In this document: in pieces, positions 1 to 11,801 of the stretch
Position numbering within the stretch: position 1 is the first letter of the stretch
Layout of the letters: each line of letters opens with the position of its first letter
Source of the DNA: Promethearchaeota archaeon
GTDB taxonomy: Archaea; Asgardarchaeota; Lokiarchaeia; Sigynarchaeales; SOKP01
Length of the DNA: 11,801 bases
Direction: 5' to 3'
Assembly (NCBI GenBank): GCA_016839845.1
Contig: JAEOTL010000402.1
Coordinates: forward strand, 1-11,801
Notes under the pieces: generated by a model
Told to the model about the DNA's origin: nothing
The model's database searches: none
What the model saw: the letters and a program-made list of their open reading frames with translations, nothing else
Translations under genes and position numbers: made by a program

Positions 1-686
1 ATTCTGCAGAATATGATTATACTTTTGTTATCGTTATTGATAAAGATGATTCGGAAGTTGAAGCACGATCACTCGTGAAAATGATGAAAAACGAGTTTAT
101 AGAAAAATATAAATCAATTTTGCCCAATTGGAATAATGATACAAGTGTCTTTGACGGATTCTGTGATTATATAGAAGATAATATATACATTCCTCCAAAG
201 ATCTTGATTACTGGTGAGGAAGATGTAGGTAAAACAACAATCATGGATTTGTTCCCTGGGGAAACACTCTTGGAATTAGATGATGATATGAATGTGATTC
301 AGCAAAAAAGAATTGAGTTAGAAGAGAACTTCATCTTTAAAGAGTGTGTTATAAAAGAAATTGACATAAATACTCTTACAGAAAATTTTAGAGCATTTAA
401 TGACTTACTAAAATCGTTGGACATTGTTTTATTTACAACTAATTCGGCAGCGAGTAATCTGGGAAGGCTGCAGGAATCAATAGCCAAAGTTAAGCCTAGA
501 ACTAGTAAAGCAGATTTCTATATAATTGCAAATTTCCAAGATTTAACAGAAACCGCATTCAAACCCGAAGAAATTGAAAACACATTTAAAATTAAAACAT
601 TTGGCTTCTCAACTAAAAAAGTGGATAAGGAATCTGAAATAATTGAAATTTTAAAAGTAACACTAGATAATTTATTGAAACGATAA
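1..686 (+). CDS. Longin-like/small GTPase-like fusion, 5' end outside window
   Basis: The reading frame is open from base 3 to the stop at 684-686, so the GTG at 75 and the ATGs just after it are probably internal and the true start lies left of the window. The first ~60 visible residues (a hydrophobic strand VIVID, then a long helix with KMMKNEF and a YKSILPNW stretch) resemble the end of a longin/roadblock-type domain. A GTPase-like domain follows. Its P-loop GEEDVGKTT lies at about residues 71-79 of the visible part, followed by a PGET-L-ELDDD segment where switch I would be. The rest is degenerate: I see no DxxG G3 motif, and the G4 position reads ANFQD rather than NKxD. Nucleotide binding is plausible, but ordinary Ras-type hydrolysis is doubtful. 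The stop is 5 bp before the JAMM gene, so co-transcription with the ubiquitin genes is likely. The GTPase call is fairly secure; the longin-like call is inference from pattern. Confidence 0.75.
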   Translation, partial: SAEYDYTFVIVIDKDDSEVEARSLVKMMKNEFIEKYKSILPNWNNDTSVFDGFCDYIEDNIYIPPKILITGEEDVGKTTIMDLFPGETLLELDDDMNVIQQKRIELEENFIFKECVIKEIDINTLTENFRAFNDLLKSLDIVLFTTNSAASNLGRLQESIAKVKPRTSKADFYIIANFQDLTETAFKPEEIENTFKIKTFGFSTKKVDKESEIIEILKVTLDNLLKR

Positions 687-691
687 TTAAG

Positions 692-1186
692 ATGTCAATT
701 ACAGAAAATTTTGTATTTCCTGTATACATTAAGGAGAGAGTTTTAGAGGAAATTACCAAAATTGGTAAAACTTCTCCCAAAGAAATATTTGGCTATCTCG
801 TGGGAGACATCTTAAAATGGAAAGAAAAAATTTATGTAGTAATTGAGGACCAACTGTTCATTCTAGGTGCTGTATATAGTCAGAAATACTCAACTTCTCA
901 AATAGAAGGAACAGCTGGTGCCTATCAGAAAAAATTTAACAGACTAAAAAGAAATAAAAAGTTTGAAAATCTAAGAATAGTAGGCTGGTGGCATACTCAC
1001 CCTGGGTTAGGGTGCTTTCTTTCAGATGTTGATCTGAAAACTCAGAGATATTTTTTCCCCGAATCCTATCATGTCGCATTAGTACTCGATCCCATAAACG
1101 TTGAATTTAAATTTTTTACACTGGATAAGCAAATTAGAAGTAAATATAAAGAAATAAGTAGCGCTGTAATCTCAGCAACAAGATAA
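692..1186 (+). CDS. Rpn11-like JAMM/MPN+ metalloprotease (deubiquitinase)
   Basis: This is a 164-residue single-domain JAMM (MPN+) zinc isopeptidase. The full catalytic set is visible: Glu31 in KEIFGYLVG, then H101-T-H103-P followed by seven residues, S111 and D114 (HxHx7SxxD). The GWWHTHPGLGCFLSDVD stretch is strikingly close to the eukaryotic Rpn11/CSN5 version, which points to a ubiquitin protease rather than a bacterial JAMM desampylase. Known relatives remove ubiquitin from substrates and trim ubiquitin-like precursors to expose the GG end. Both jobs fit here, because the two modifier genes at 2707-3271 encode residues after their GG. No signal peptide or membrane segment is seen, so it is cytosolic. 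It lies 5 bp after the GTPase-like gene and 26 bp before the E1. The ATG at 692 gives the usual compact N-terminus; no strong Shine-Dalgarno sequence precedes it. Confidence 0.95.
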   Translation: MSITENFVFPVYIKERVLEEITKIGKTSPKEIFGYLVGDILKWKEKIYVVIEDQLFILGAVYSQKYSTSQIEGTAGAYQKKFNRLKRNKKFENLRIVGWWHTHPGLGCFLSDVDLKTQRYFFPESYHVALVLDPINVEFKFFTLDKQIRSKYKEISSAVISATR

Positions 1187-1212: not shown

Positions 1213-2124
1213 ATGCTAATGAATCAAAAAGATAGAAATATAGACATTGAGGTACTTAGTTCTAAATCAATAGATACTGACAAGTTTGATCGTCAAAAAA
1301 GAATAAAAGGGTGGGATCAAAAGAAAATTTCAAGTGCTAAGGTTATGGTTATCGGGGTAGGTGCAACAGGAAACGAAGTAGTAAAGAACCTTGTTTTAGC
1401 AGGGGTGGGAACCATCCTAATAATAGACTATGATATGATTGAACCTTCAAATTTAAATCGATGTGTTCTCTTTAATATCGACGCAGCGAAAAATAAGGAG
1501 TATAAAGTTGATGTGGTAAAAGAAGCGAGTAGAATTCTCAATCCCGATGTAAAAGTCATAGCATTAAAGGAAGAATTAAACGCCATTGATAAAGAACTTT
1601 ACAATCAATACGATGTAGTCTGTTCATGCCTCGATAATATTGAAGCGAGAGTAGAAGCAAATAATTATTCCTATTATAATGGTACACCATTCATTGATTC
1701 GGGGATTGATGGGTATTTTGGTACCGTTCAAGCTGTCTACTCAAAAATGCCTGAATCTTCATGTTTGCAGTGTGGAATTACTGATATTGATCTAGATTTA
1801 ATGTGGAAGAAGTTTTCATGTACCGGACAAGAAATAAGCACCGAAAACGGAGCGACAACTGAAAAGATAGCTACTCTTGTCACCACAACCTCAGTAATAG
1901 GGGGAATTCAATCTCAACAAGTACTAAAATTCATTTTAGGAGTTGATTACTTTAATGAGTTTAAGGAATGGGATCCGAATATAGGGGAGCCTCTAATTGG
2001 TAGACAGTTAAATTATAATGGTCTTACTAATATATTTAATATAATAAGTAAATTTAAAGATCCAAGTTGTTGGGTTTGTTCATACAAAAAAGTCGAGAAA
2101 CATGAAATTAATAATAGTGGATGA
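1213..2124 (+). CDS. Ubiquitin-activating E1-like enzyme (ThiF/MoeB/UBA fold)
   Basis: This 303-residue adenylating enzyme would activate the C-terminal glycine of the modifiers encoded at 2707-3271, using ATP, and then take them onto a cysteine. Visible features in order: FDRQKRI at 25-31; the nucleotide loop GVGATG at 48-53; the acidic strand end IIDYD at 70-74; SNLNR with Arg83; Lys98; and a eukaryote-like CLDNIEAR box with Asp141. Two CxxC pairs, C184/C187 and C286/C289, should hold the structural zinc. Cys203 in FSCTG, shortly before the TTTSVIGGIQSQQVLKF helix, is the best thioester cysteine (inference). Only the adenylation core is present, with no separate catalytic-cysteine half-domain and no recognisable ubiquitin-fold domain. 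The gene ends in Ser-Gly-stop and overlaps the E2 start by 4 bp, so the two are translationally coupled. The start may be either ATG 1213 or ATG 1219. Confidence 0.95.
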   Translation: MLMNQKDRNIDIEVLSSKSIDTDKFDRQKRIKGWDQKKISSAKVMVIGVGATGNEVVKNLVLAGVGTILIIDYDMIEPSNLNRCVLFNIDAAKNKEYKVDVVKEASRILNPDVKVIALKEELNAIDKELYNQYDVVCSCLDNIEARVEANNYSYYNGTPFIDSGIDGYFGTVQAVYSKMPESSCLQCGITDIDLDLMWKKFSCTGQEISTENGATTEKIATLVTTTSVIGGIQSQQVLKFILGVDYFNEFKEWDPNIGEPLIGRQLNYNGLTNIFNIISKFKDPSCWVCSYKKVEKHEINNSG

Positions 2125-2699
2125 GATTAATGCCTGAATTACCTGTTGAAATATGGGAAGATAGACTTAATAATGAGTTTAATACCCTAAAGAATCTTAA
2201 TGTAGTTCAAACAGATTCTATTATCTGGCATGAGAACAATGTTGAATTACTAATAAAAATAAAGGCAATTGGATTTGTGTTAGGACTTGATCAAAATCCT
2301 GAGAATTTAATGCCAAAAACCCACCACAAGATATTCTTCAAAATTAACCGTACTTTTCCATATCCAGGGGGTATTGATTTTGCTTGGCAATCGAGCATTT
2401 TTCATCCTAATATTCATCCTGTTAAAATAACGTCAACACGAGAACCTGGAACCGGTTATATTTGTCTGAACGTTCTTAAACAATGGTCTAGGCTTTCTGA
2501 TTTGGAAAATACAGTTAAAGCCCTACAAAAGTTAGTAGAAAATCCGAATCCCGACGATCCACTAAAATATGATATCTGCATGAAAGCCGCGGAATATTTT
2601 AAGGAGCATACGATGGAAAATCTCAAGGATCGTTTTAATTTGGAAGATAAAGATGAGGATGAAGGCGATGATGATGATATTATTGTTATTGATGACTGA
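2121..2699 (+). CDS. Ubiquitin-conjugating E2-like enzyme (UBC fold) with acidic tail
   Basis: This 192-residue protein has a recognisable E2 core. The N-terminal helix has E-x-RLNNEF at 13-20. It is followed by FKINRTFPYPGG at 73-84, a full HPN motif at 95-97 (FHPNIH), active-site Cys115 in GYICLNVLKQW, the WSRLSDL segment from Trp122, and the post-catalytic LVENPNPDDPL loop at 138-148. Having both the HPN asparagine and the catalytic cysteine makes an active enzyme likely rather than a UEV-type pseudo-E2. It should receive the modifier from the E1 encoded just upstream and pass it to a lysine. Residues ~175-192 form a strongly acidic tail (EDKDEDEGDDDD and IDD), similar in character to the tails of Cdc34/Rad6-type E2s. 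The ATG at 2121 overlaps the E1 stop (ATGA); ATG 2130 is an alternative start. It converges on the modifier genes with a 7-bp gap. Confidence 0.95.
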   Translation: MRLMPELPVEIWEDRLNNEFNTLKNLNVVQTDSIIWHENNVELLIKIKAIGFVLGLDQNPENLMPKTHHKIFFKINRTFPYPGGIDFAWQSSIFHPNIHPVKITSTREPGTGYICLNVLKQWSRLSDLENTVKALQKLVENPNPDDPLKYDICMKAAEYFKEHTMENLKDRFNLEDKDEDEGDDDDIIVIDD

Positions 2700-2706
2700 A
2701 ACTCAA

Positions 2707-2964
2707 TTAAGTTCCTCCTATAACACGTGTCCAGAGTAATAACTTATCATTCTCTTTCAATCCGAATTTATGGATTGCTTGTTCAATAGTAATTGAATTA
2801 GGTAGTTCCTGCTCATGGAGGACTAATGCATAGGAGCGTTGCTCAGCGCTAATAATCCCCATTTGTTTAATTAGGACATCTATTATACGCTCAATTTTAT
2901 GATGCTCCTTAACCTCTACCTTTTGACCTTTCCCAGTTCGTACATCTTCAACAGTGATTTTCAT
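2707..2964 (-). CDS. Ubiquitin-like modifier, GG plus one-residue tail
   Basis: This 85-residue beta-grasp protein is of ubiquitin size. Its layout is a strand with MKITVED, a turn with TGK, a second strand, the helix around residues 22-36 (HKIERIIDVLIKQMG), the strand SYALVLHEQ, and a final strand LLLWTRVIGG. The diglycine is at 83-84 and is followed by a single Thr85, so a protease must remove one residue before E1 can act; the JAMM protein at 692-1186 is the obvious candidate. There are no cysteines, and lysines at 2, 12, 15, 19, 33, 66, 70 and 74 could accept chains. It is about 79% identical (67/85 by my hand count) to the next modifier upstream, from which it is separated by 25 bp, so the two are probably one transcript. 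No Shine-Dalgarno sequence is seen. Its stop lies 7 bp from that of the convergent E2. Confidence 0.92.
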   Translation of the reverse strand: MKITVEDVRTGKGQKVEVKEHHKIERIIDVLIKQMGIISAEQRSYALVLHEQELPNSITIEQAIHKFGLKENDKLLLWTRVIGGT

Positions 2965-2989: not shown

Positions 2990-3271
2990 TTATTTAATAT
3001 GTATTAAATTGAATTTAGTTCCTCCTATAACGCGCGCCCAAAGCGATAATTGATCATTTTCTTTTAAACCAAATTTATGGATTGCATCTTCGATAGTAAT
3101 AGAGTTGGGTAATTCCTTTTCGTGGAGGACTAAGGTATAAGAGCGTTGTTCGGCACTGATAATTCCCATATGTTTGATTACGATATCTATAATACGTTCA
3201 ACTTCGTGGTGTTCCTTAACATCGAGCTTAATAACCTTTCCAGTTCTAGTATCCTCAACCGAGATTCTCAT
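2990..3271 (-). CDS. Ubiquitin-like modifier paralogue with 9-residue C-terminal extension
   Basis: This is a second modifier of the same family, 93 residues long, colinear with the 85-residue copy without gaps up to and including GGT. It then continues with KFNLIHIK, so nine residues follow the diglycine at 83-84. Conserved parts include KEHH at 19-22, the MGIISAEQRSY stretch at 35-45, ELPNSITIE at 53-61, KFGLKEND at 66-73 and the terminal RVIGG. Differences cluster on likely surface positions, as expected for modifiers with different partners. The extension must be cleaved for conjugation, which fits precursor processing by an Rpn11-type JAMM enzyme as known for other archaeal ubiquitins. 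It is the promoter-proximal gene of the modifier pair, and a TATA-like box lies ~95 bp upstream. DNA alignment suggests the extension arose from, or was removed by, one base change at the stop codon. Confidence 0.92.
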   Translation of the reverse strand: MRISVEDTRTGKVIKLDVKEHHEVERIIDIVIKHMGIISAEQRSYTLVLHEKELPNSITIEDAIHKFGLKENDQLSLWARVIGGTKFNLIHIK

Positions 3272-3452: not shown

Positions 3453-3740
3453 TTAGAATATTATACTCACAGTACTTGCTATAACTATTGCGGAAATGAT
3501 TACACACAAGAATATTACACAAGATTGGGCATTTGGGATAAGTTTCCATATTTTTAACTTAATTCGTAAGGAAGTTAGGAAATAATAAATTAACGGGATT
3601 CCCAATGAGACACCGAATAAGACTAATGAGAGGATCCAATTGAGGAAAAGCAATAATACTCCACTTATTACTAAAATCAACTCTATGACGCCAATACTCC
3701 AAGATTGCATTAGTTTCTTTGTTAGTTTTGAAAATTTCAT
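3453..3740 (-). CDS. Three-helix membrane protein of unknown function, copy 1
   Basis: I do not recognise this 95-residue family. A basic N-terminus (MKFSKLTKKL) is followed by two closely spaced hydrophobic segments at about 16-35 and 37-56, a positively charged loop with RIKLKIWKLIPNAQS at about 59-73, and a third hydrophobic segment at about 74-95. By the positive-inside rule the N-terminus and the basic loop face the cytoplasm. The copy at 4378-4665 is the same length and 63/95 identical by hand count. The loop from YLTSLR through KIWLIPNAQSCVIF is the best conserved region and is the likely functional part. The start overlaps the stop of the upstream soluble gene (ATGA), and a GAGGG at 3751-3755 can serve as ribosome binding site, so the two products are translationally coupled and probably act together at the membrane. 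Confidence 0.8.
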   Translation of the reverse strand: MKFSKLTKKLMQSWSIGVIELILVISGVLLLFLNWILSLVLFGVSLGIPLIYYFLTSLRIKLKIWKLIPNAQSCVIFLCVIISAIVIASTVSIIF

Positions 3741-4147
3741 CCACTATCCACCCTCTTGAAATTATTAATTGAACCACTAGTGTTTACACTCAATGCTAGA
3801 TCTATATCAGATGGAGACAGATTTGCATCAGGAACAGTAGACTCATAAACGTGCCATTCAACACTTTCGCATTTACTCTTATAAAATTTCATTATATTTA
3901 CGGCATTATTGCTTATGAAACTGTGTGTTACTGGGGGAAGTCCAGTAACATCTTCCGCGGGTAAAATTCGAAAAATTTGAGTAAATTCAATATTTTCATC
4001 ATCGAACCTTACATTATCAATAATTAAATTTTCAATATATTGATCATCAGACCTAAAAATTCGCTCTCTCACTCCGTGATTCCTTGCGTCTATAATAAAA
4101 TCTCTATCAGTTATAGGGAACCTCATCTTTTTTATTATATAAGTCAC
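3737..4147 (-). CDS. Soluble partner protein of unknown function, copy 1 (GTG start)
   Basis: This 136-residue protein has no membrane segment or signal peptide, and I do not recognise the family. Features shared with the copy at 4662-5072 are: an N-terminal strand with IIKKM-x-FP; FR-x-DD-x-YI at about 31-38; I-x-DNV soon after; FTQI at about 55-58; a helix with NNA-x-x-IMKFYK at about 79-89; a strand with V/I-x-W; and a C-terminus ending in Asp-Ser-Gly. The region between the shared blocks is divergent. The GTG start at 4147 is supported by a GAGGG ribosome binding site 7 nt upstream (4155-4159) that is identical in the paralogue. It overlaps the membrane gene downstream by 4 bp. An invariant partnership with the three-helix protein is implied by the duplicated order and spacing; the function is unknown. 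Confidence 0.8.
   Translation of the reverse strand: MTYIIKKMRFPITDRDFIIDARNHGVRERIFRSDDQYIENLIIDNVRFDDENIEFTQIFRILPAEDVTGLPPVTHSFISNNAVNIMKFYKSKCESVEWHVYESTVPDANLSPSDIDLALSVNTSGSINNFKRVDSG
3751..3755 (-). promoter_or_regulatory. Ribosome binding site, membrane gene copy 1
   Basis: GAGGG, 10 nt before the ATG at 3740 and inside the end of the soluble gene. The equivalent site in copy 2 is a stronger AGGAGG. Confidence 0.5.
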
Positions 4148-4377: not shown

Positions 4378-4665
4378 TTATAAAATTATACTCACAGTAC
4401 TTACAATGATTATCGCAGATATTATGAAGATGAGGAATATCACACATGATTGGGCATTAGGGATAAGTCTCCATATTTTTAACTTGACTCGTAATGAAGT
4501 CAGGTAATAATAAACCAGCGGGGCACCCAAAGCAAAACCGAATAATATCACTGAGATAATCCAATTAAAGAACAGCAGGAGTATTCCAGCCATTACTAAA
4601 ATCAGATCTATCAAACTAACCGTCACAAATTCCCTTCTCTTTTCTGTGATTTTTGACATTTTCAT
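4378..4665 (-). CDS. Three-helix membrane protein of unknown function, copy 2
   Basis: This 95-residue paralogue of the protein at 3453-3740 aligns without gaps. The charged N-terminus (KITEKRRE) differs most, while the hydrophobic segments at about 17-36, 38-57 and 74-95 and the cytoplasmic loop RVKLKIWRLIPNAQSC are kept. Conservation of a loop together with conservative swaps (Ile/Val/Leu) in the helices suggests selection on a real membrane protein whose loop contacts a partner. The obvious partner is the soluble protein encoded immediately upstream, whose stop overlaps this start (ATGA). An AGGAGG at 4673-4678, 7 nt before the ATG, supports the start. No family assignment is possible from sequence alone. 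Confidence 0.8.
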   Translation of the reverse strand: MKMSKITEKRREFVTVSLIDLILVMAGILLLFFNWIISVILFGFALGAPLVYYYLTSLRVKLKIWRLIPNAQSCVIFLIFIISAIIIVSTVSIIL

Positions 4666-5072
4666 CCACTATCCTCCTCATTATATTTATCTGTTTTCTC
4701 TTCCATACCTTCAATACTTAATCCTAATGCTTCTTGAGCATCGGCTTCAGCTGTTGAAGGATTAATTGTTGTAAAAACAGCCCATTTTATGATTCCACAT
4801 TTTTTTTTGGTCCATTGTTTATAGAATTTCATGATACGTGCAGCATTATCTATTACAACGCCATTATCAAGGTAGTCTGGCACATTATTAATTTCCAGAA
4901 TTTGAGTAAATTTACATATGCCGTTTTCAATCATTACATTGTCCTTGATAACAGTTCTAATGTATTCATCATCGGCCCTAAAAACTGGGATATCCTTTGC
5001 AACTTTCTTTGCATCCATAACATCATTGGCTTTATTTAACGGGAACTCCATTTTTTTTATAACAAAACTCAC
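4662..5072 (-). CDS. Soluble partner protein of unknown function, copy 2 (GTG start)
   Basis: This is a 136-residue paralogue of the protein at 3737-4147. The reading frame stays open further upstream to an ATG at 5129, but the GTG at 5072 is preferred: it has the same GAGGG-aaaaatc-GTG context as copy 1, gives exactly the same length, and begins at the first conserved residues (FVIKKMEFP). Starting at 5129 would also place translation inside the region between promoter block and gene. Shared blocks are FR-x-DD-x-YI, I-x-DNV, FTQI, the DNAARIMKFYK helix and a C-terminal Asp-Ser-Gly. The C-terminal ~25 residues are acidic and probably flexible. No domain is recognised and no membrane segment is seen. 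It is coupled by a 4-bp overlap to the three-helix membrane protein. Confidence 0.8.
   Translation of the reverse strand: MSFVIKKMEFPLNKANDVMDAKKVAKDIPVFRADDEYIRTVIKDNVMIENGICKFTQILEINNVPDYLDNGVVIDNAARIMKFYKQWTKKKCGIIKWAVFTTINPSTAEADAQEALGLSIEGMEEKTDKYNEEDSG
4673..4678 (-). promoter_or_regulatory. Ribosome binding site, membrane gene copy 2
   Basis: AGGAGG, 7 nt before the ATG at 4665. It is the strongest Shine-Dalgarno sequence noticed in the window and lies within the end of the upstream soluble gene. Confidence 0.7.
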
Positions 5073-5079
5073 GATTTTT

Positions 5080-5084
5080 CCCTC
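5080..5084 (-). promoter_or_regulatory. Ribosome binding site that fixes the GTG start at 5072
   Basis: GAGGG with a 7-nt spacer (aaaaatc) before GTG, identical to the site in module copy 1. It decides against the longer reading from 5129. Confidence 0.75.
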
Positions 5085-5131
5085 TTTTTGTTTAATTACG
5101 TAATAAAATGCATATATTGGATAAACCATTA

Positions 5132-6802: not shown

Positions 6803-7843
6803 CTAATCCTTACCCCTATCCTCATCCGGGGGTTTCTTTCTCTCATAAGGTTTTACAGGCTTAGCCTCGTCAAAAGGTTCATCACAGACCCAACACATAT
6901 TCTCCAACTCACTTAGCTGTTCAGAACAATTTGTGCAATAGAGAGTACTACATTTAGGGCATATATAATTCAATCTTGCTACATCTCCCTTGCACACCAG
7001 ACAAATTTTTTTCTCCTTGTAATATGATATCTCCTCTTCAGTTATGTGTTCAGGTCTTTCGTAAAACCTAAATAGAGATTCTTTTAACTGAAGTTCCTTC
7101 TTAATTTCTCTTCGCTGTATTTTTTCAACATCTGTCACTTTTAATCCTAAATAGAAGAATACGAACCCTATTATCATTACCATCCGTGCGATATATGTAT
7201 AAGGCTCCTTCATTTGAAGCACAAATACAAATATTGGAGCTCCCGCAAAAAGTAGGTATCCTGTTGACAATGATAAGAATTTTCTTCTGATAATATCTTT
7301 TGATTTTATACCCTTATATAAATAACCGAAGCCACAAAAGATAAAAGCTATAAGGACAAACGTGTAATTTATTAATCCAGCGGGTTTAAAGGGATCTATG
7401 GTAACTTCGATTATCATTTCTCCTGGCCAAATATTATCAACAATAACATTTCCCAAGGGAAACATGAAAAGAAATATTTCATAGATAATGCCCAGAATTA
7501 GAAAGGGTATAATAATAAATATCTTCTTATTAGGTGAGAAAAGATCAGCAGCAATATAAAACGATAACAGGAAAGCTATAGGCGACCAAAAAAAATAGAT
7601 AATTGCTAGTGACTCAGGAGGAATCATAATGTTTACATCCGTGATAAGCAGACTAAAAAAATCTAAAAATACCCCAAACCAAAAAAAACCTGCAAATACA
7701 ATATTTATCCCCATATAAAAAAGAAGTTTAGCCTCCCATTTTCTGGCTTGCCATATAACACTTGCTCCAAGAACACACGCAAAAATAAACGAAAACGTCG
7801 CTGTAATTCCATTGATCCAACTAAAATCTTCTATATATAACAT
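6803..7843 (-). CDS. Seven-helix membrane protein with cytoplasmic C4C4 RING-like domain, copy 1
   Basis: 346 residues. Seven hydrophobic segments are visible at about 10-31, 40-67, 79-102, 108-135, 155-177, 190-212 and 219-240. Loops after helices 1, 3, 5 and 7 are basic (QARKWEAK, PNKK, KSKDIIRRK, KIQRREIKK) and those after 2, 4 and 6 are neutral or acidic. This predicts N-terminus out and C-terminus in, a receptor-like topology. The cytoplasmic tail begins with a charged linker and then has eight cysteines at 281, 284, 295, 298, 303, 306, 317 and 320 (C-x2-C-x10-C-x2-C-x4-C-x2-C-x10-C-x2-C), with YICPKC and YCTNC inside. The pattern resembles all-cysteine RING or TFIIH p44-type treble-clef domains binding two zincs. 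The very end is basic and proline-rich. In this neighbourhood a membrane-bound E3 role is a reasonable but unproven idea; a plain zinc domain is the alternative. Confidence 0.85.
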   Translation of the reverse strand: MLYIEDFSWINGITATFSFIFACVLGASVIWQARKWEAKLLFYMGINIVFAGFFWFGVFLDFFSLLITDVNIMIPPESLAIIYFFWSPIAFLLSFYIAADLFSPNKKIFIIIPFLILGIIYEIFLFMFPLGNVIVDNIWPGEMIIEVTIDPFKPAGLINYTFVLIAFIFCGFGYLYKGIKSKDIIRRKFLSLSTGYLLFAGAPIFVFVLQMKEPYTYIARMVMIIGFVFFYLGLKVTDVEKIQRREIKKELQLKESLFRFYERPEHITEEEISYYKEKKICLVCKGDVARLNYICPKCSTLYCTNCSEQLSELENMCWVCDEPFDEAKPVKPYERKKPPDEDRGKD

Positions 7844-7937
7844 TTAAGACTTCTCATCTTAGAAACCATTTTTTCTTAACTAGAATAGATAATGGTTTAT
7901 GTTGGAAATTGAATATTCAATTAAATAAAAAATTAGT

Positions 7938-7960
7938 TTCATATCCTTAAATACTTATCT
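7938..7960 (-). promoter_or_regulatory. Conserved promoter-like block upstream of 7TM gene copy 1
   Basis: These 23 bp match 9145-9167 at 22 positions and lie 95 bp upstream of the start, against 93 bp for copy 2. On the minus strand the block reads AGATAAGTATTTAAGGATAT, with a TTTAAG core that could be a TATA box. Surrounding sequence is much less conserved. A ~70-nt leader would follow. Confidence 0.55.
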
Positions 7961-8011
7961 GCATTAAGTTAGAATTTATTAAAAAAATTTGAAAATTTCT
8001 TCAAAGTAAAC

Positions 8012-9052
8012 CTAGGTTTTACCTGGAGTTTCTTCTTCCTTAGGTTTTTTCTTCTTATGGGGTCTTACTGGTTTGGTTTCATCGAATGGCTCATCACAGA
8101 CCCAACACATATTTTCTAAATCACCCAATTGCTTGGAGCATTTATCACAATAAAGAGCACTGCACTTAGGACAAATGTAGTTTATTCTTGATACATTTCC
8201 TTTACACACCAAACAAATTTTCTTTTCTCTATGAAAAGATACCTCTTCTTCTGTAATATAGTCAGGCCGTTCATAAAGTCTAAACAGAGATTCTCGTACC
8301 TGCACTTCCTTTCTGATTTCCTTCTCTCTCGTTTTTTCCATAGGGGCTTCCCTTAAACCGAGGTAAAAAAATAGAACACCAACTATCATTCCGATTCTTA
8401 TAAAATAAGTAACTAACCCTTCAACAAAGATAGCCATTAAGGGACATAGAAGAAAAAGGAAATAGCCCGTTGATAACATCAAAAATTTTCTTCTAATAAT
8501 ATCTTGGGATCGAAAGCCTTTATATAAATAACCAAAACCACAGAAAATAACTGCTATAAGCAAAAACGCATAATTTAATATAAAAGCTATGCTAAAACTA
8601 ATAAAATCGACATTAATAAGTTCAGTACCAGGAACTGATGGATTTGTCACAATAAAATTATTCAAAGGATTAATAAGAATTACAATAATGCAAGTAGCGC
8701 CTAAAATGAGAAATGGGAAGATTACAGCGTATTTCTTTTCTGGGATAAAGAGTTCTGCAGCAATATAGAATGAAACAAGAAAGGCTAAAGGTGACCACAT
8801 TAAACGCAAAATTGCCAATGGTCCATCTGGTATAGCAATATTACTCCCAGTCGAAATAACAGCCAGAAAATCCAGAAATATGGCGAACCAAAAGAAACTA
8901 ACTAAAAAAATATTAAATCCCATATATAAGAGTAGTTTGGCGTTTATCTTTCGTGCTTGATAAATTATGCTCAATCCAAGAACACAGGTAAATATAAAAG
9001 AAAATGAACCCGTAAGTCCATCAGCCCAACCATCTTCAGACAATAATAACAT
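8012..9052 (-). CDS. Seven-helix membrane protein with cytoplasmic C4C4 RING-like domain, copy 2
   Basis: This 346-residue paralogue of the protein at 6803-7843 has the same seven-helix layout and the same basic inner loops (QARKINAK, PEKK, RSQDIIRRK, KTREKEIRKE). The outer loop after helix 4 diverges most (NPSVPGTELINVDF against DNIWPGEMIIEVTIDPF), as expected if the outside face senses different things. The zinc cysteines are at 280, 283, 294, 297, 302, 305, 316 and 319 with identical spacing; CLVCKG, NYICPKCS, LYC, ENMCWVCDEPFDE and the linker SLFR-YERP are nearly invariant between copies. Strong conservation of tail and linker with a variable exterior argues for a shared cytoplasmic output. 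It ends in a lysine-rich tail. The gene stands alone, with 168 and 193 bp gaps and its own conserved upstream block at 9145-9167. Confidence 0.85.
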   Translation of the reverse strand: MLLLSEDGWADGLTGSFSFIFTCVLGLSIIYQARKINAKLLLYMGFNIFLVSFFWFAIFLDFLAVISTGSNIAIPDGPLAILRLMWSPLAFLVSFYIAAELFIPEKKYAVIFPFLILGATCIIVILINPLNNFIVTNPSVPGTELINVDFISFSIAFILNYAFLLIAVIFCGFGYLYKGFRSQDIIRRKFLMLSTGYFLFLLCPLMAIFVEGLVTYFIRIGMIVGVLFFYLGLREAPMEKTREKEIRKEVQVRESLFRLYERPDYITEEEVSFHREKKICLVCKGNVSRINYICPKCSALYCDKCSKQLGDLENMCWVCDEPFDETKPVRPHKKKKPKEEETPGKT

Positions 9053-9245: not shown

Positions 9246-10691
9246 TCAAAAAATGCCAAATTTTCTCTTGTTTGAATTTTTAGATATAGATTTACCCCTA
9301 ATCCATCTTAAAATGCGATAATGAAGAGGAGGCTGATCTAATGCATCTATAAGGGATTTTACTTTATCGTCAGTTTTGATCCTTGAGCTTCTTAATATTT
9401 CAACTGCCTGGTTTAGCATTTCGATCTCTTTTTCTTTCTCCACCCTTTCACGTAATATTTCATAAAAACCATGTTTTTTCCCGAACATATTGCTTAACCA
9501 TTTTCTTTCCTTTTCTAGCGATATTTGTTTTTGCTGTATTTTTGTTTCCTCAATCCTCTTTTCTACTTCTTGGTTAAGTAAGATTTCCTCGATAATTTCC
9601 CCGCTTAATTCATCATATCCTTTCAGAGATTGTCTTTCCTCTTCATTTAGATATCTTAAATACCCTCCTTTAAGCAAAAATAATTTTGAGCTCTTTACGC
9701 CTTCTTCAAACCGTTTTGCAATTTCTTCTTTAAACACACTAACTGCTGGACTATAATCAAGATCTACTAATTTTTTTAATAGAGGAAATGCAATATTTGA
9801 AGCTAAAATATCGGTTTGTAACCCACTTTCAAAAAAAGCTTGAATATTTGAGCAATGACCTTGGAATTCTTCTTCAGGTGTAATTATAAAGTGACGAGAA
9901 TCTCTTGATATAGGTCCTTCTAAAATTCTGTTCTGCCATAAAGTTCGCTGGAAGACCTCAGCAGCTTCATCAATAGATCTTATCTCATCCGCTTCTGATA
10001 TTCTCTCTACGGGAATATTTAACAACAAACGAGCACAAATCAAGAATTCTTCATCATTCACATAAATATATGTTCTATCTTCAATTAGTCTTAAATCCAC
10101 TAAGTCGTTTATCTTAAAAAATTCAGATATCTCAACCTTAGGTAAATTGATTATATTAGACATTAATGTTTTAAATGCTCTACTTATATTATGACCTGTT
10201 TTAGCTGAAGTTTCTACATATTTAGCGCTGTATTCCTTTGCTTTTTCTCTTGCTCCTTCATATGTTATTAGTCTTTTATGAGTTTTATCAGTTTTATTGC
10301 CTACAATGACCAATGGGATGTTCTCATTAAGTTCATTTATTCTTTTTATCCAAAACTCTACTCTATTAAAGGATTGTCGGGAGGTAACATCAAAAACCAC
10401 TATAGCTCCTGCTGATTTGGTTAAGTAATTTTCGTTTAGGCTTAGCTGATTACTACTTCCCATAATGTCCCAAAAGTAGATTATAAAATGGTCATTTGAA
10501 TTTTTATAATCGAGATCTCCAATATCTGCTGTGTCTCGAATTAGATTTGCATCTAATTTTTTTATCAGCACGTTTGCTCCCACAGTTTGGTTATATTCTC
10601 TGTGGTAACTATCCTTGATATATCGGGTTAAAAGAGCTGATTTACCGACCCTTGAATCGCCACAAATTACAACCTTTTTCCGATAAATCAT
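9246..10691 (-). CDS. Rab/Ras-like small GTPase with ~300-residue C-terminal extension
   Basis: 481 residues. The first ~180 form a Rab/Ras-type G domain: G1 GDSRVGKS at 11-18, switch I threonine T36 in YNQTVG, G4 NKTD at 132-135 and G5 ETSAK at 160-164. Two departures stand out. A ~20-residue insertion rich in Asp/Asn (about 47-68) sits between switch I and the G3 strand. G3 reads WDIMGSS (74-80), so the glutamine that positions the hydrolytic water in Ras/Rab is serine, predicting slow intrinsic hydrolysis or dependence on a partner. After residue ~185 comes an unassigned region, then a charged helical, probably coiled-coil stretch at about 370-440, and a basic C-terminus (RWIRGKSISKNSNKRK) that could touch membrane lipids. 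There is no C-terminal prenylation cysteine. It is flanked by 7TM-zinc genes, so signalling at the same membrane is conceivable (inference). Confidence 0.9.
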   Translation of the reverse strand: MIYRKKVVICGDSRVGKSALLTRYIKDSYHREYNQTVGANVLIKKLDANLIRDTADIGDLDYKNSNDHFIIYFWDIMGSSNQLSLNENYLTKSAGAIVVFDVTSRQSFNRVEFWIKRINELNENIPLVIVGNKTDKTHKRLITYEGAREKAKEYSAKYVETSAKTGHNISRAFKTLMSNIINLPKVEISEFFKINDLVDLRLIEDRTYIYVNDEEFLICARLLLNIPVERISEADEIRSIDEAAEVFQRTLWQNRILEGPISRDSRHFIITPEEEFQGHCSNIQAFFESGLQTDILASNIAFPLLKKLVDLDYSPAVSVFKEEIAKRFEEGVKSSKLFLLKGGYLRYLNEEERQSLKGYDELSGEIIEEILLNQEVEKRIEETKIQQKQISLEKERKWLSNMFGKKHGFYEILRERVEKEKEIEMLNQAVEILRSSRIKTDDKVKSLIDALDQPPLHYRILRWIRGKSISKNSNKRKFGIF

Positions 10692-10792: not shown

Positions 10793-11368
10793 TTAATAAA
10801 TCCGGAATAAGATATCGTCTAGGCTTCTCTTAGGGACGTGCATCCCACCATCCCCATCTTTCCAGTATTTATACGTATCTTTGTAGGGCTCCATTACCGA
10901 TTTTTCATCGGGATACCCTAAACTAATAACTTGTTTTATGTCGTAGTGTTCGGGAATTTCGAAAATTTCTCTAATTTTTTGATAATTAATGTTTGCCATC
11001 CAACATGAACCGAGATCAAATGTTACAGCACCTAATAATATATTTTCCACAGCTGCTCCCACATCAAAGTCCACGAAAGCTCGTTTTATATTGGTGTTTA
11101 CTAGCACTATTATGTAAGCTGTTGGTTCTCGTCCTGCTTCAGGAGTTCGCTCTTTTTCCGGAAGAGAACTTGCCCATTTTACTAAAGGGAACATTTTTTT
11201 GCACTCTTCGGGATTTTCAACAATTATAAATTCTAGTGCTTGCACATTCATGGCCACAGGAGCAATACGTGCGTAATCTACGAGTTTCTTAAGAGTCTCA
11301 ACTTTTATCGGGTCTTGCTTAAACCTTCTAATCGTTCTTCTCTTGTATAAAATTTCTTCAAAATTCAT
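10793..11368 (-). CDS. Nitroreductase-family flavoprotein
   Basis: This 191-residue protein has the nitroreductase fold signature. The N-terminal RRTIRRF at 10-16 is the FMN-phosphate binding box, APVAMNVQALEFIIVE follows, and the later GAAVENILLGA plus LGSCWMANI segment and a VISLGYPDE strand are the conserved core of the family. Such enzymes bind FMN as dimers and use NAD(P)H to reduce nitro compounds, quinones or flavins; the true substrate is not predictable here. It is full length for the family's short branch. A TATA-like box lies 51 bp upstream. The 101-bp gap to the GTPase gene downstream suggests separate transcription. No link to the ubiquitin genes is evident, and it looks like an ordinary metabolic gene between the 7TM copies. 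Confidence 0.9.
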   Translation of the reverse strand: MNFEEILYKRRTIRRFKQDPIKVETLKKLVDYARIAPVAMNVQALEFIIVENPEECKKMFPLVKWASSLPEKERTPEAGREPTAYIIVLVNTNIKRAFVDFDVGAAVENILLGAVTFDLGSCWMANINYQKIREIFEIPEHYDIKQVISLGYPDEKSVMEPYKDTYKYWKDGDGGMHVPKRSLDDILFRIY

Positions 11369-11556: not shown

Positions 11557-11801
11557 TCACTGTGTTTTTCCAAGGGTTTCATCTTCCTTAGGTTTTTTCT
11601 TCTTGTATGGCCTAACTGGCTTAGTGTCATCAAACGGTTCATCACAGACCCAGCACATGTTTTCTAAATCACCTAGCTGGTCAGAACATTTATCGCAATA
11701 CAGAGCACTACATTTCGGACAAATATAATTTATTCTTGATACACTCCCTTTACACACCAAACAAATTTTCTTTTCTCTATGAAAAGATACTTCTTCCTCG
11801 G
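11557..11801 (-). CDS. Third 7TM/C4C4 RING-like paralogue, C-terminal part only
   Basis: This is the last 81 residues of a gene that runs off the right edge; the frame is open to the final bases, so the GTG at 11760 is not a start. The visible part begins with EEEVSFHREKKICLVC, matching copy 2 (8012-9052) almost residue for residue. All eight cysteines are kept with the same spacing, and the tail has KPVRPYKKKKPKEDE. It is closer to copy 2 than to copy 1. Whether the seven-helix part is present cannot be seen. Together with the two complete copies it shows that the family is expanded locally, here separated by the GTPase and nitroreductase genes. Confidence 0.85.
   Translation of the reverse strand, partial: EEEVSFHREKKICLVCKGSVSRINYICPKCSALYCDKCSDQLGDLENMCWVCDEPFDDTKPVRPYKKKKPKEDETLGKTQ

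Follow-up and report, generated by a model that had tools for sequence, protein, structure and literature searches.

The window analysed here, an 11,801-nucleotide contig of a Promethearchaeota archaeon (assembly GCA_016839845.1, contig JAEOTL010000402.1), encodes seven-transmembrane (7TM) proteins with a C-terminal RING-like tail, near a cassette for a ubiquitin-like modifier (Ubl) that comprises a JAB protease, a short activating enzyme (E1) and a conjugating enzyme (E2). We found that the tail, and not the 7TM part, defines the family. It is shared by many otherwise unrelated proteins of Lokiarchaeota-type Asgard archaea, mostly membrane proteins among those seen, which suggests a prokaryotic, sensor-driven set resembling ubiquitin ligases (E3s), and its genes accompany the short-E1 cassette both within loci and across genomes. 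It is highly probable that tail and cassette function together, and we lean towards the view that the tail is a docking site for the E2 and stimulates the transfer of Ubl, though not in the usual manner. RING E3s, archaeal ubiquitin cassettes with a free small RING protein and 7TM sensors are already known kinds; what appears to be new, as far as the literature search shows, is a family of RING-like C-terminal tails found on many different proteins, together with its tie to the short-E1 cassette. Neither was described among the matches listed by that search, bioRxiv and most subscription journals lying outside it.

A tail module on diverse proteins, linked to the short-E1 cassette

The 7TM-tail protein has 459 homologues at E<=1e-3, which excludes a chance origin, and all of those with an organism name come from Asgard archaea, including Promethearchaeota, Lokiarchaeota and Hodarchaeota. 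When the tail was the sole query, 154 proteins matched; the best 120 of these 154 include PF14196 and PF01243 proteins (about 60% identity) and a further protein with SDR domains. The same tail of about 70 residues ends TPR, LRR, PNPOx, ATC-hydrolase, MFS-like and other multi-transmembrane proteins, so that a 7TM-specific domain is ruled out, and the 7TM part is found without the tail as well (in genome G001 the matches end near residue 235). The initial annotation had described the family as 7TM proteins with such a tail, a description that has to be corrected. Several full tail genes with differing front parts can stand on one contig, five in G122 and three in G121, the latter beside one degenerate fragment. 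By a simple hydropathy rule, a transmembrane segment precedes the tail in 230 of 245 entries and follows it in none (0/245), in a set that is redundant and biased toward the 7TM query; the tail would be cytoplasmic. Viral carriage was considered and dropped, since none of 68 pattern stretches in viral_contigs was confirmed (two peptide patterns only).

In order to follow the tail across genomes, 227 genomes were surveyed, representing the phylum of the genome carrying locus L001, a Lokiarchaeota metagenome-assembled genome; their completeness is not stated. Clear orthologues of the window-type short E1 occur in 26 of them (at least 305 bits; the next best match has 142). Under a loose cut (tail E<1e-15) the tail is present in 26/26 cassette genomes and in 9/201 others (Fisher 7e-27; G097, G099, G105, G106, G118, G133, G137, G151 and G155), and under a strict cut of 95 bits, which omits intermediate and diverged forms, in 22/26 and 6/201, respectively (Fisher 2e-21), the cassette genomes that fail being G100, G158, G159 and G162. 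Both thresholds were chosen after inspection of the data, the loose one being placed at gaps. Tail matches of any strength occur in 66 genomes, strong in 35 and weak only, and not inspected, in 31; one strong row of G137 and two of G099 belong to the diverged RING-like relative and were retained in the loose counts.

Because the genomes are related, the association was also evaluated on a tree (one RNA polymerase segment, midpoint root, 71 of the 80 genomes searched), for a block of genomes chosen after seeing where the tails lie. With loose labels there are 15 and 18 changes on this tree, and tail and cassette occur together in 23 genomes, cassette only in 0, tail only in 7 and neither in 41; the dependent model is preferred over the independent one with a likelihood ratio of 50.4, and 0/5000 simulated tail histories reach the phi of 0.81. 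Strict labels give 21, 2, 5 and 43 genomes in the same order and a likelihood ratio of 42.6 (4 degrees of freedom, p 1e-8), with 0/5000 simulated tail histories reaching 0.79. The association thus survives tree-aware tests under both cuts. The co-occurrence with E1 and E2 genes holds for this one short-E1 cassette but fails for ubiquitin genes in general, since a strong tail is missing in 134 of the 168 genomes (of 227) with a PF00179 E2, and co-occurrence with any E2 was dropped as uninformative. The converse case, a wide occurrence of the family without ubiquitin genes, was not seen, as 34 of the 35 strong-tail genomes have a PF00179 E2. Among cassette-negative tails that were read, the one in G105 is degenerate, two of three in G118 have stops and three of four in G155 have lost ligands, a stop or a truncation. 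Stop codons were counted by hand in 5/20 listed rows of cassette-negative genomes and in 4/130 elsewhere (Fisher 0.002), or in 3/20 against 4/130 (p 0.05) without two that lie at the match end, the four not being checked, which is a hint of tail decay without the cassette.

The linkage is also physical. Typically the P-loop gene is followed by JAB, E1 and E2, with Ubl and tail next on the opposite strand. In 17 of the 26 genomes, plus the window, a tail open reading frame lies less than about 5 kb from a cassette gene (L001, L057, L058, L059, L070, L084 and L089 to L099), and in 13/26 it lies on the Ubl strand less than 700 bp from the Ubl gene (L057, L058, L059, L070, L084, L089, L090, L091, L092, L094, L095, L097 and L099). 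The carriers at the 17 linked loci are seven 7TM-family proteins, two proteins of 398-405 residues, three of 300-337 residues and five that are partial or decayed; among the 17, L091 and L099 are shortened or degenerate, L094 is without one ligand, L095 ends with its contig and L084 is shortened by the start-codon rule. The conserved neighbour of the Ubl gene is the tail, whatever its N-terminal part. The proposed association with E1 and E2 genes is therefore borne out in two ways, by gene position (17/26 genomes) and by the tree tests, for a cassette of E1, E2, Ubl and JAB.

RING features of the tail and gene content of the window

The cysteines follow the pattern C-x2-C-x(10-12)-C-x2-C-x4-C-x2-C-x10-C-x2-C in 173 of 184 collected homologues, the first gap being exactly 10 in 139, so that the eight-cysteine C4C4 tail first noted in the window has, as a sequence pattern, its ligands in cross-brace order. 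The 11 off-pattern homologues include shortened forms and forms with His at ligand 5, a missing ligand or C-x-C at the second pair. The RING-like fold that had been suggested is also what the tail model points to, its structure-search rows being RING and U-box proteins, with Foldseek E-values that are not significant; the TFIIH rows of this search we take to be p44, and the TFIIH p44 structure 1z60 is among the weak sequence matches (E 4.1 and 0.9). With profile models, the copy at the window edge reaches 13.7 bits with zf-RING_2 (cut-off 27.3), the best homologue seen reaches 22.4 with zf-C3HC4_3 (cut-off 27) and the window tails reach 13.6-20.3 with Double zinc ribbon (PF12773/PF18912; cut-offs 27-27.3); in the window proteins none of the double-zinc-ribbon, C1_2 or RING models passes its cut-off. 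Residue counts were made on 207 distinct tails, those that fit the pattern among 235 distinct tail strings. The hydrophobic positions that would face the E2 are kept, with V or I two residues after the first cysteine in 205/207 and L, I, M or V four residues after the sixth in 207/207.

Diverged forms of the domain also exist. Very long surface-type proteins of G100, G158, G159, G161 and G162 have at their C-terminus a version of the domain that is intermediate or diverged (CLVHKG or similar) and were therefore not counted as tail carriers, and the stricter 95-bit count was made. The form is intermediate in L038, L040 and L044 and diverged (His or other changes) in L041, L042, L043, L045 and L046. 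The surface-type proteins of L040, L045 and L046 (also L041-L044) have 1368-3296 residues, with a beta-helix in L040, L045 and L046 and PKD in L045. Another diverged RING-like relative (L181, L197, L198, L102:6845-8617 and L075:5432-5638) has CVVHKG, CIVHRG or CLFHKG instead of CLVCKG and is without the ITEEE and KP parts; it occurs also in cassette-negative genomes, and adjoins the Ubl gene in L102. In G158 and G159, proteins with tandem RING-like C4C4 repeats (L107:3709-4185 and L108:5003-5475) are encoded at a distance of 3.5-5 kb from the short E1.

Both 7TM open reading frames are present in the window with the ends given by the initial annotation (6803-7843 and 8012-9052, minus strand, 346 residues each). 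The AlphaFold2 model of the protein encoded at 8012-9052 (mean predicted local distance difference test score, pLDDT, 85.1; predicted template modelling score 0.68) agrees with the seven helices proposed, which are seen as long segments at residues 6-36, 39-68, 76-102 (with a one-residue break), 104-127, 155-181, 184-206 and 214-233; its tail is folded (blocks of pLDDT 78-87) and the linker at 238-260 is of low confidence. The positive-inside topology described for the helices was judged by eye. The two copies share 203 of 343 residues. They had been described as nearly invariant in tail and linker and variable in the outer loops. The loops do vary (57, 42 and 33% identity), but "nearly invariant" overstates the likeness of the tails (residues 265-333, 74%, 51/69) and is incorrect for the linker (52%, 16/31). 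The edge copy and the copy at 8012-9052 are 92% identical over 79 tail residues. The 7TM part weakly resembles MASE3 and HisKA_7TM: MASE3 (NF047874) matches residues 4-271 of the copy at 6803-7843 (E 2.4e-4, 20 bits, cut-off 560) and does not match the other, HisKA_7TM (PF16927) matches neither window copy at E<=1, and each of the two models matches 3/63 family members. A structure search with the 7TM part gave mainly G-protein-coupled receptors, but a rhodopsin scores close in fold and the weak sequence matches favour prokaryotic 7TM sensors, and homology to those receptors was dropped.

The genes of the window are listed in Table 1. The E2 passes UQ_con (42.4 bits, cut-off 27) with its HPN and active-site Cys present; the FHPNI-type and GYICLN motifs are conserved among cassette E2s, and loop 4 "PY" is found in 23/23. 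An acidic C-terminus, rich in I, V or L with a D/E end, is found in 22/23; in the window E2 (2660-2699) it consists of an acidic run and IIVIDD. From its sequence it resembles a SUMO-interaction-type motif (SIM) and could bind the Ubl or the basic end of the tail. The Ubl ends in GG followed by 0 to 9 residues, exactly in GG in 2/23. The cassette JAB keeps the JAMM motif and the cassette E1 keeps SCTG. The E1 matches UBA1 (102 bits), UBA6 (91) and UBA5 (64), and a UFM1-type E1 was considered and provisionally dropped because UBA1 and UBA6 outscore UBA5, though the UBA5 match is the longer one. A longer E1 with another E2 is encoded elsewhere in several cassette genomes (e.g. G122, G109 and G125). 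The P-loop gene, of 227 to about 880 residues, heads the cassette in most loci; its product is probably a Ras-like GTPase and may be a functional part of the cassette.

The remaining genes are all on the minus strand. The two tandem gene pairs stand between the Ubl and 7TM genes, and a relative of their 95-residue hydrophobic protein occupies the same place in L001. The extension of the second GTPase is C-terminal, about 300 residues long and of no assigned kind. A radical SAM protein is encoded there as well. In several cassette loci (the window, L057, L058, L070 and L092) the tail genes are accompanied by a nitroreductase gene and, near it, a Ras-like gene.

Table 1. Features of the 11,801-nucleotide window
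Position	Strand	Feature	Remarks
3..686	+	P-loop gene, probably Ras-like GTPase	heads the cassette; weak matches only; 5' end outside the window
692..1186	+	JAB/JAMM protease (HTHP...SDVD)	likely Ubl processing or removal
1213..2124	+	short E1, ThiF family, 303 residues	FSCTGQE and two CxxC pairs
2121..2699	+	E2 (UQ_con)	FHPNI; GYICLNVLKQW active site; loop 4 PY; acidic/hydrophobic C-terminus
2707..2964	-	ubiquitin-like modifier 1	ends ...VIGGT; sub-threshold Pfam matches only (RA, Ras-binding domain)
2990..3271	-	ubiquitin-like modifier 2	...VIGG, then nine residues; polyubiquitin match E 0.0084
3453-4147, 4378-5129		two tandem copies of a gene pair	95-residue hydrophobic protein and 136/155-residue protein
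6803..7843	-	7TM protein with C-terminal RING-like tail, 346 residues	59% identical to copy 8012-9052
8012..9052	-	7TM protein with C-terminal RING-like tail, 346 residues	tail about 265-333
8054..8260	-	RING-like tail segment of copy 8012-9052	residues 265-333, eight Cys
9246-10691		Ras-family GTPase	long extension
10793-11368		nitroreductase	
11557..11799	-	third tail, 80 residues	N-terminal part beyond the window edge

Proposed role of the tail and alternative readings

In the mechanism that we propose, the RING-like module of about 70 residues would be the E2-docking, E3-like end of the Ubl/JAB/short E1/E2 cassette. The variable front parts (7TM, other multi-transmembrane sensors, TPR, LRR or enzyme-like) would choose the place and the substrate or sense a signal, and the constant tail would bring the charged E2 there, so that the Ubl could be put on neighbours or on the carrier itself. 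The chances seem to us evenly balanced that this amounts to a one-component form of Ubl signalling, in which sensors and other proteins, as many as about twenty in a genome, have in common an interchangeable tail that hands the cassette Ubl to local targets, the tail being a new RING-like class with an invariant Trp and almost always no linchpin; the copy numbers are lower bounds, with at most 25 tail candidates scored per genome. In Caldiarchaeum, transfer is reported to be impaired by changing loop 4 PY of the E2 or residues I30, W58 and R69 of the small RING protein srfp, and not by the loop 7 change PS103/104AA (Hennell James 2017, PMC5654768). When the tail is mapped to srfp, V282 is at the I30 place and L309 at the W58 place, and the R69 place has R or K in 2/207. 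Docking and transfer by the tail would be unusual because the hydrophobics are kept while Arg or Lys is almost absent at the R69 place and the loop Pro is a Trp.

However, a number of observations weigh against an E3-like tail. The best Foldseek E-value for the tail is 0.019, which is not significant, and of 30 tails tested the double-zinc-ribbon models match 26, C1_2 matches 24 and the RING model zf-C3HC4_3 matches 10. Of the 207 distinct tails, 205 lack the linchpin Arg/Lys that would follow the last Cys (of the other two, one has K and one R), with N, D or E at this position in 192/207, and the Pro of the loop between the seventh and eighth Cys is replaced by Trp in 207/207; the R69A change of Caldiarchaeum srfp impairs transfer (PMC5654768). 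The E2 has also lost its loop 7 "SPA" (WS-R/L/Q-L). Other zf-RING_2 matches, of any kind, occur in 170 of the 227 genomes, and therefore the cassette may use another E3. Nine of the 26 cassette loci are without a proper tail in the stretch examined: in L100, L101, L103, L104, L105 and L106 this stretch, which in some cases ends close by, has no tail-profile match, and L102, L107 and L108 have other RING-like proteins there (the CIVHRG relative and tandem repeats), which were excluded from the linkage count. Strong tail matches without the short E1 exist in nine genomes, and among these the tails of G106, G151 and G097 and some of those of G133 appear intact. Finally, among the copies read in cassette genomes, G158 and G162 have CLVHKG, G159 has CLVHKG or a more diverged form and G100 has the diverged relative.

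Some of these points would also suit a tail that is a target or docking tag and not a ligase. The cassette E2, alone or assisted by another E3, would then attach the Ubl to the tail or its carrier and so mark the varied front parts for removal or sorting. The nearly always missing linchpin, the other RING proteins in most genomes and the carriage of the tail by enzymes and transporter-like proteins, which need no ligase, favour this, as do a Lys directly after the second Cys in 204/207 distinct tails and a tail end, "DESKPxKP", whose K and P are invariant in 30/30 aligned tails; the acidic, SIM-like E2 C-terminus could then bind the basic segment or the Ubl. Nevertheless, a RING-like fold with conserved hydrophobic positions facing the E2 exceeds the needs of a tag, and self-modification by an E3-like protein would look alike, so that we regard a mere tag as unlikely, though worth keeping in mind. 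It is a little harder still to accept that the tail is a reader or scaffold, binding the Ubl, the JAB or the product of the P-loop gene and gathering receptors into clusters, with no stimulation of transfer. Structural RINGs, p44 among them, are generally viewed as giving no such stimulation, and the cysteine spacing, presumably of the p44 class, the TFIIH p44 matches, the loss of linchpin and loop Pro and the frequent presence of the P-loop gene in the cassette would all be in keeping with such a role, but we noticed no other RING-like protein as closely associated with this E2 cassette, no systematic search having been made.

In regards to the association itself, the tail could be a zinc-binding signalling tail unrelated to the cassette, its linkage and co-distribution arising from shared mobility or chance in one lineage. 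All strong tails do lie within one part of the phylum, the completeness of the genomes is not given and the tree derives from a single gene segment. Nonetheless, the association is tight over 15 to 18 changes on the tree, the tail remains beside the Ubl while the N-terminal part changes and, as a hint, some cassette-negative tails have decayed, all of which makes an unrelated tail very improbable.

Significance and comparison with known systems

To our knowledge, an enlarged range of E3s and the use of membrane receptors as E3s count as eukaryotic traits. If the E3-like role of the tail is true, prokaryotes would have in this family their own equivalent of receptor-type E3 ligases, in which kinase-like 7TM inputs have been connected to a ubiquitin output, and the family would show how E3 diversity can come about through domain shuffling, either earlier than eukaryotes or alongside them. 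Ubl, JAB, E1, E2 and tail would also form a small, expressible set for direct testing.

Bacterial Bil/Bub and 6E-type operons have the same enzyme set (Ubl, E1, E2 and JAB), and we know of no RING-like receptor family in them. The E1 and JAB of the window weakly match the PADLOC E1-E2/JAB models and Citrobacter BubCD, the E2 and Ubl have no PADLOC match at E<=0.01, and the identity of a Bil/Bub defence operon was dropped given that only the E1 and JAB matched, and weakly. Compared with MASE3/HisKA_7TM sensors, the window proteins have a RING-like tail as output where those have a histidine kinase. The ligand set of the tail is presumably in the same spacing class as the C4C4 RING of p44/Ssl1 (1z60), but p44 is a TFIIH subunit with no shared context and its match is not significant. 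Eukaryotic membrane RING E3s (PA-TM-RING, RNF43/ZNRF3) combine a membrane sensor part with a C-terminal cytoplasmic RING; here, in contrast, there is a C4C4 set, a 7TM front and an adjacent prokaryotic Ubl cassette, a likeness in architecture with no sequence membership shown.

The operon of Caldiarchaeum subterraneum (PMC5654768) is alike in its compact Ub/E1/E2/JAMM genes with a RING-type partner, in the residues beyond GG in the ubiquitin precursor and in the loop 4 "PY" of the E2. Its srfp is a small free RING with linchpin Arg R69, whereas the tail described here is fused to larger proteins, of 346 residues in the window and of other kinds elsewhere, almost always lacks the linchpin, has Trp for the loop Pro and is present in many copies away from the cassette.
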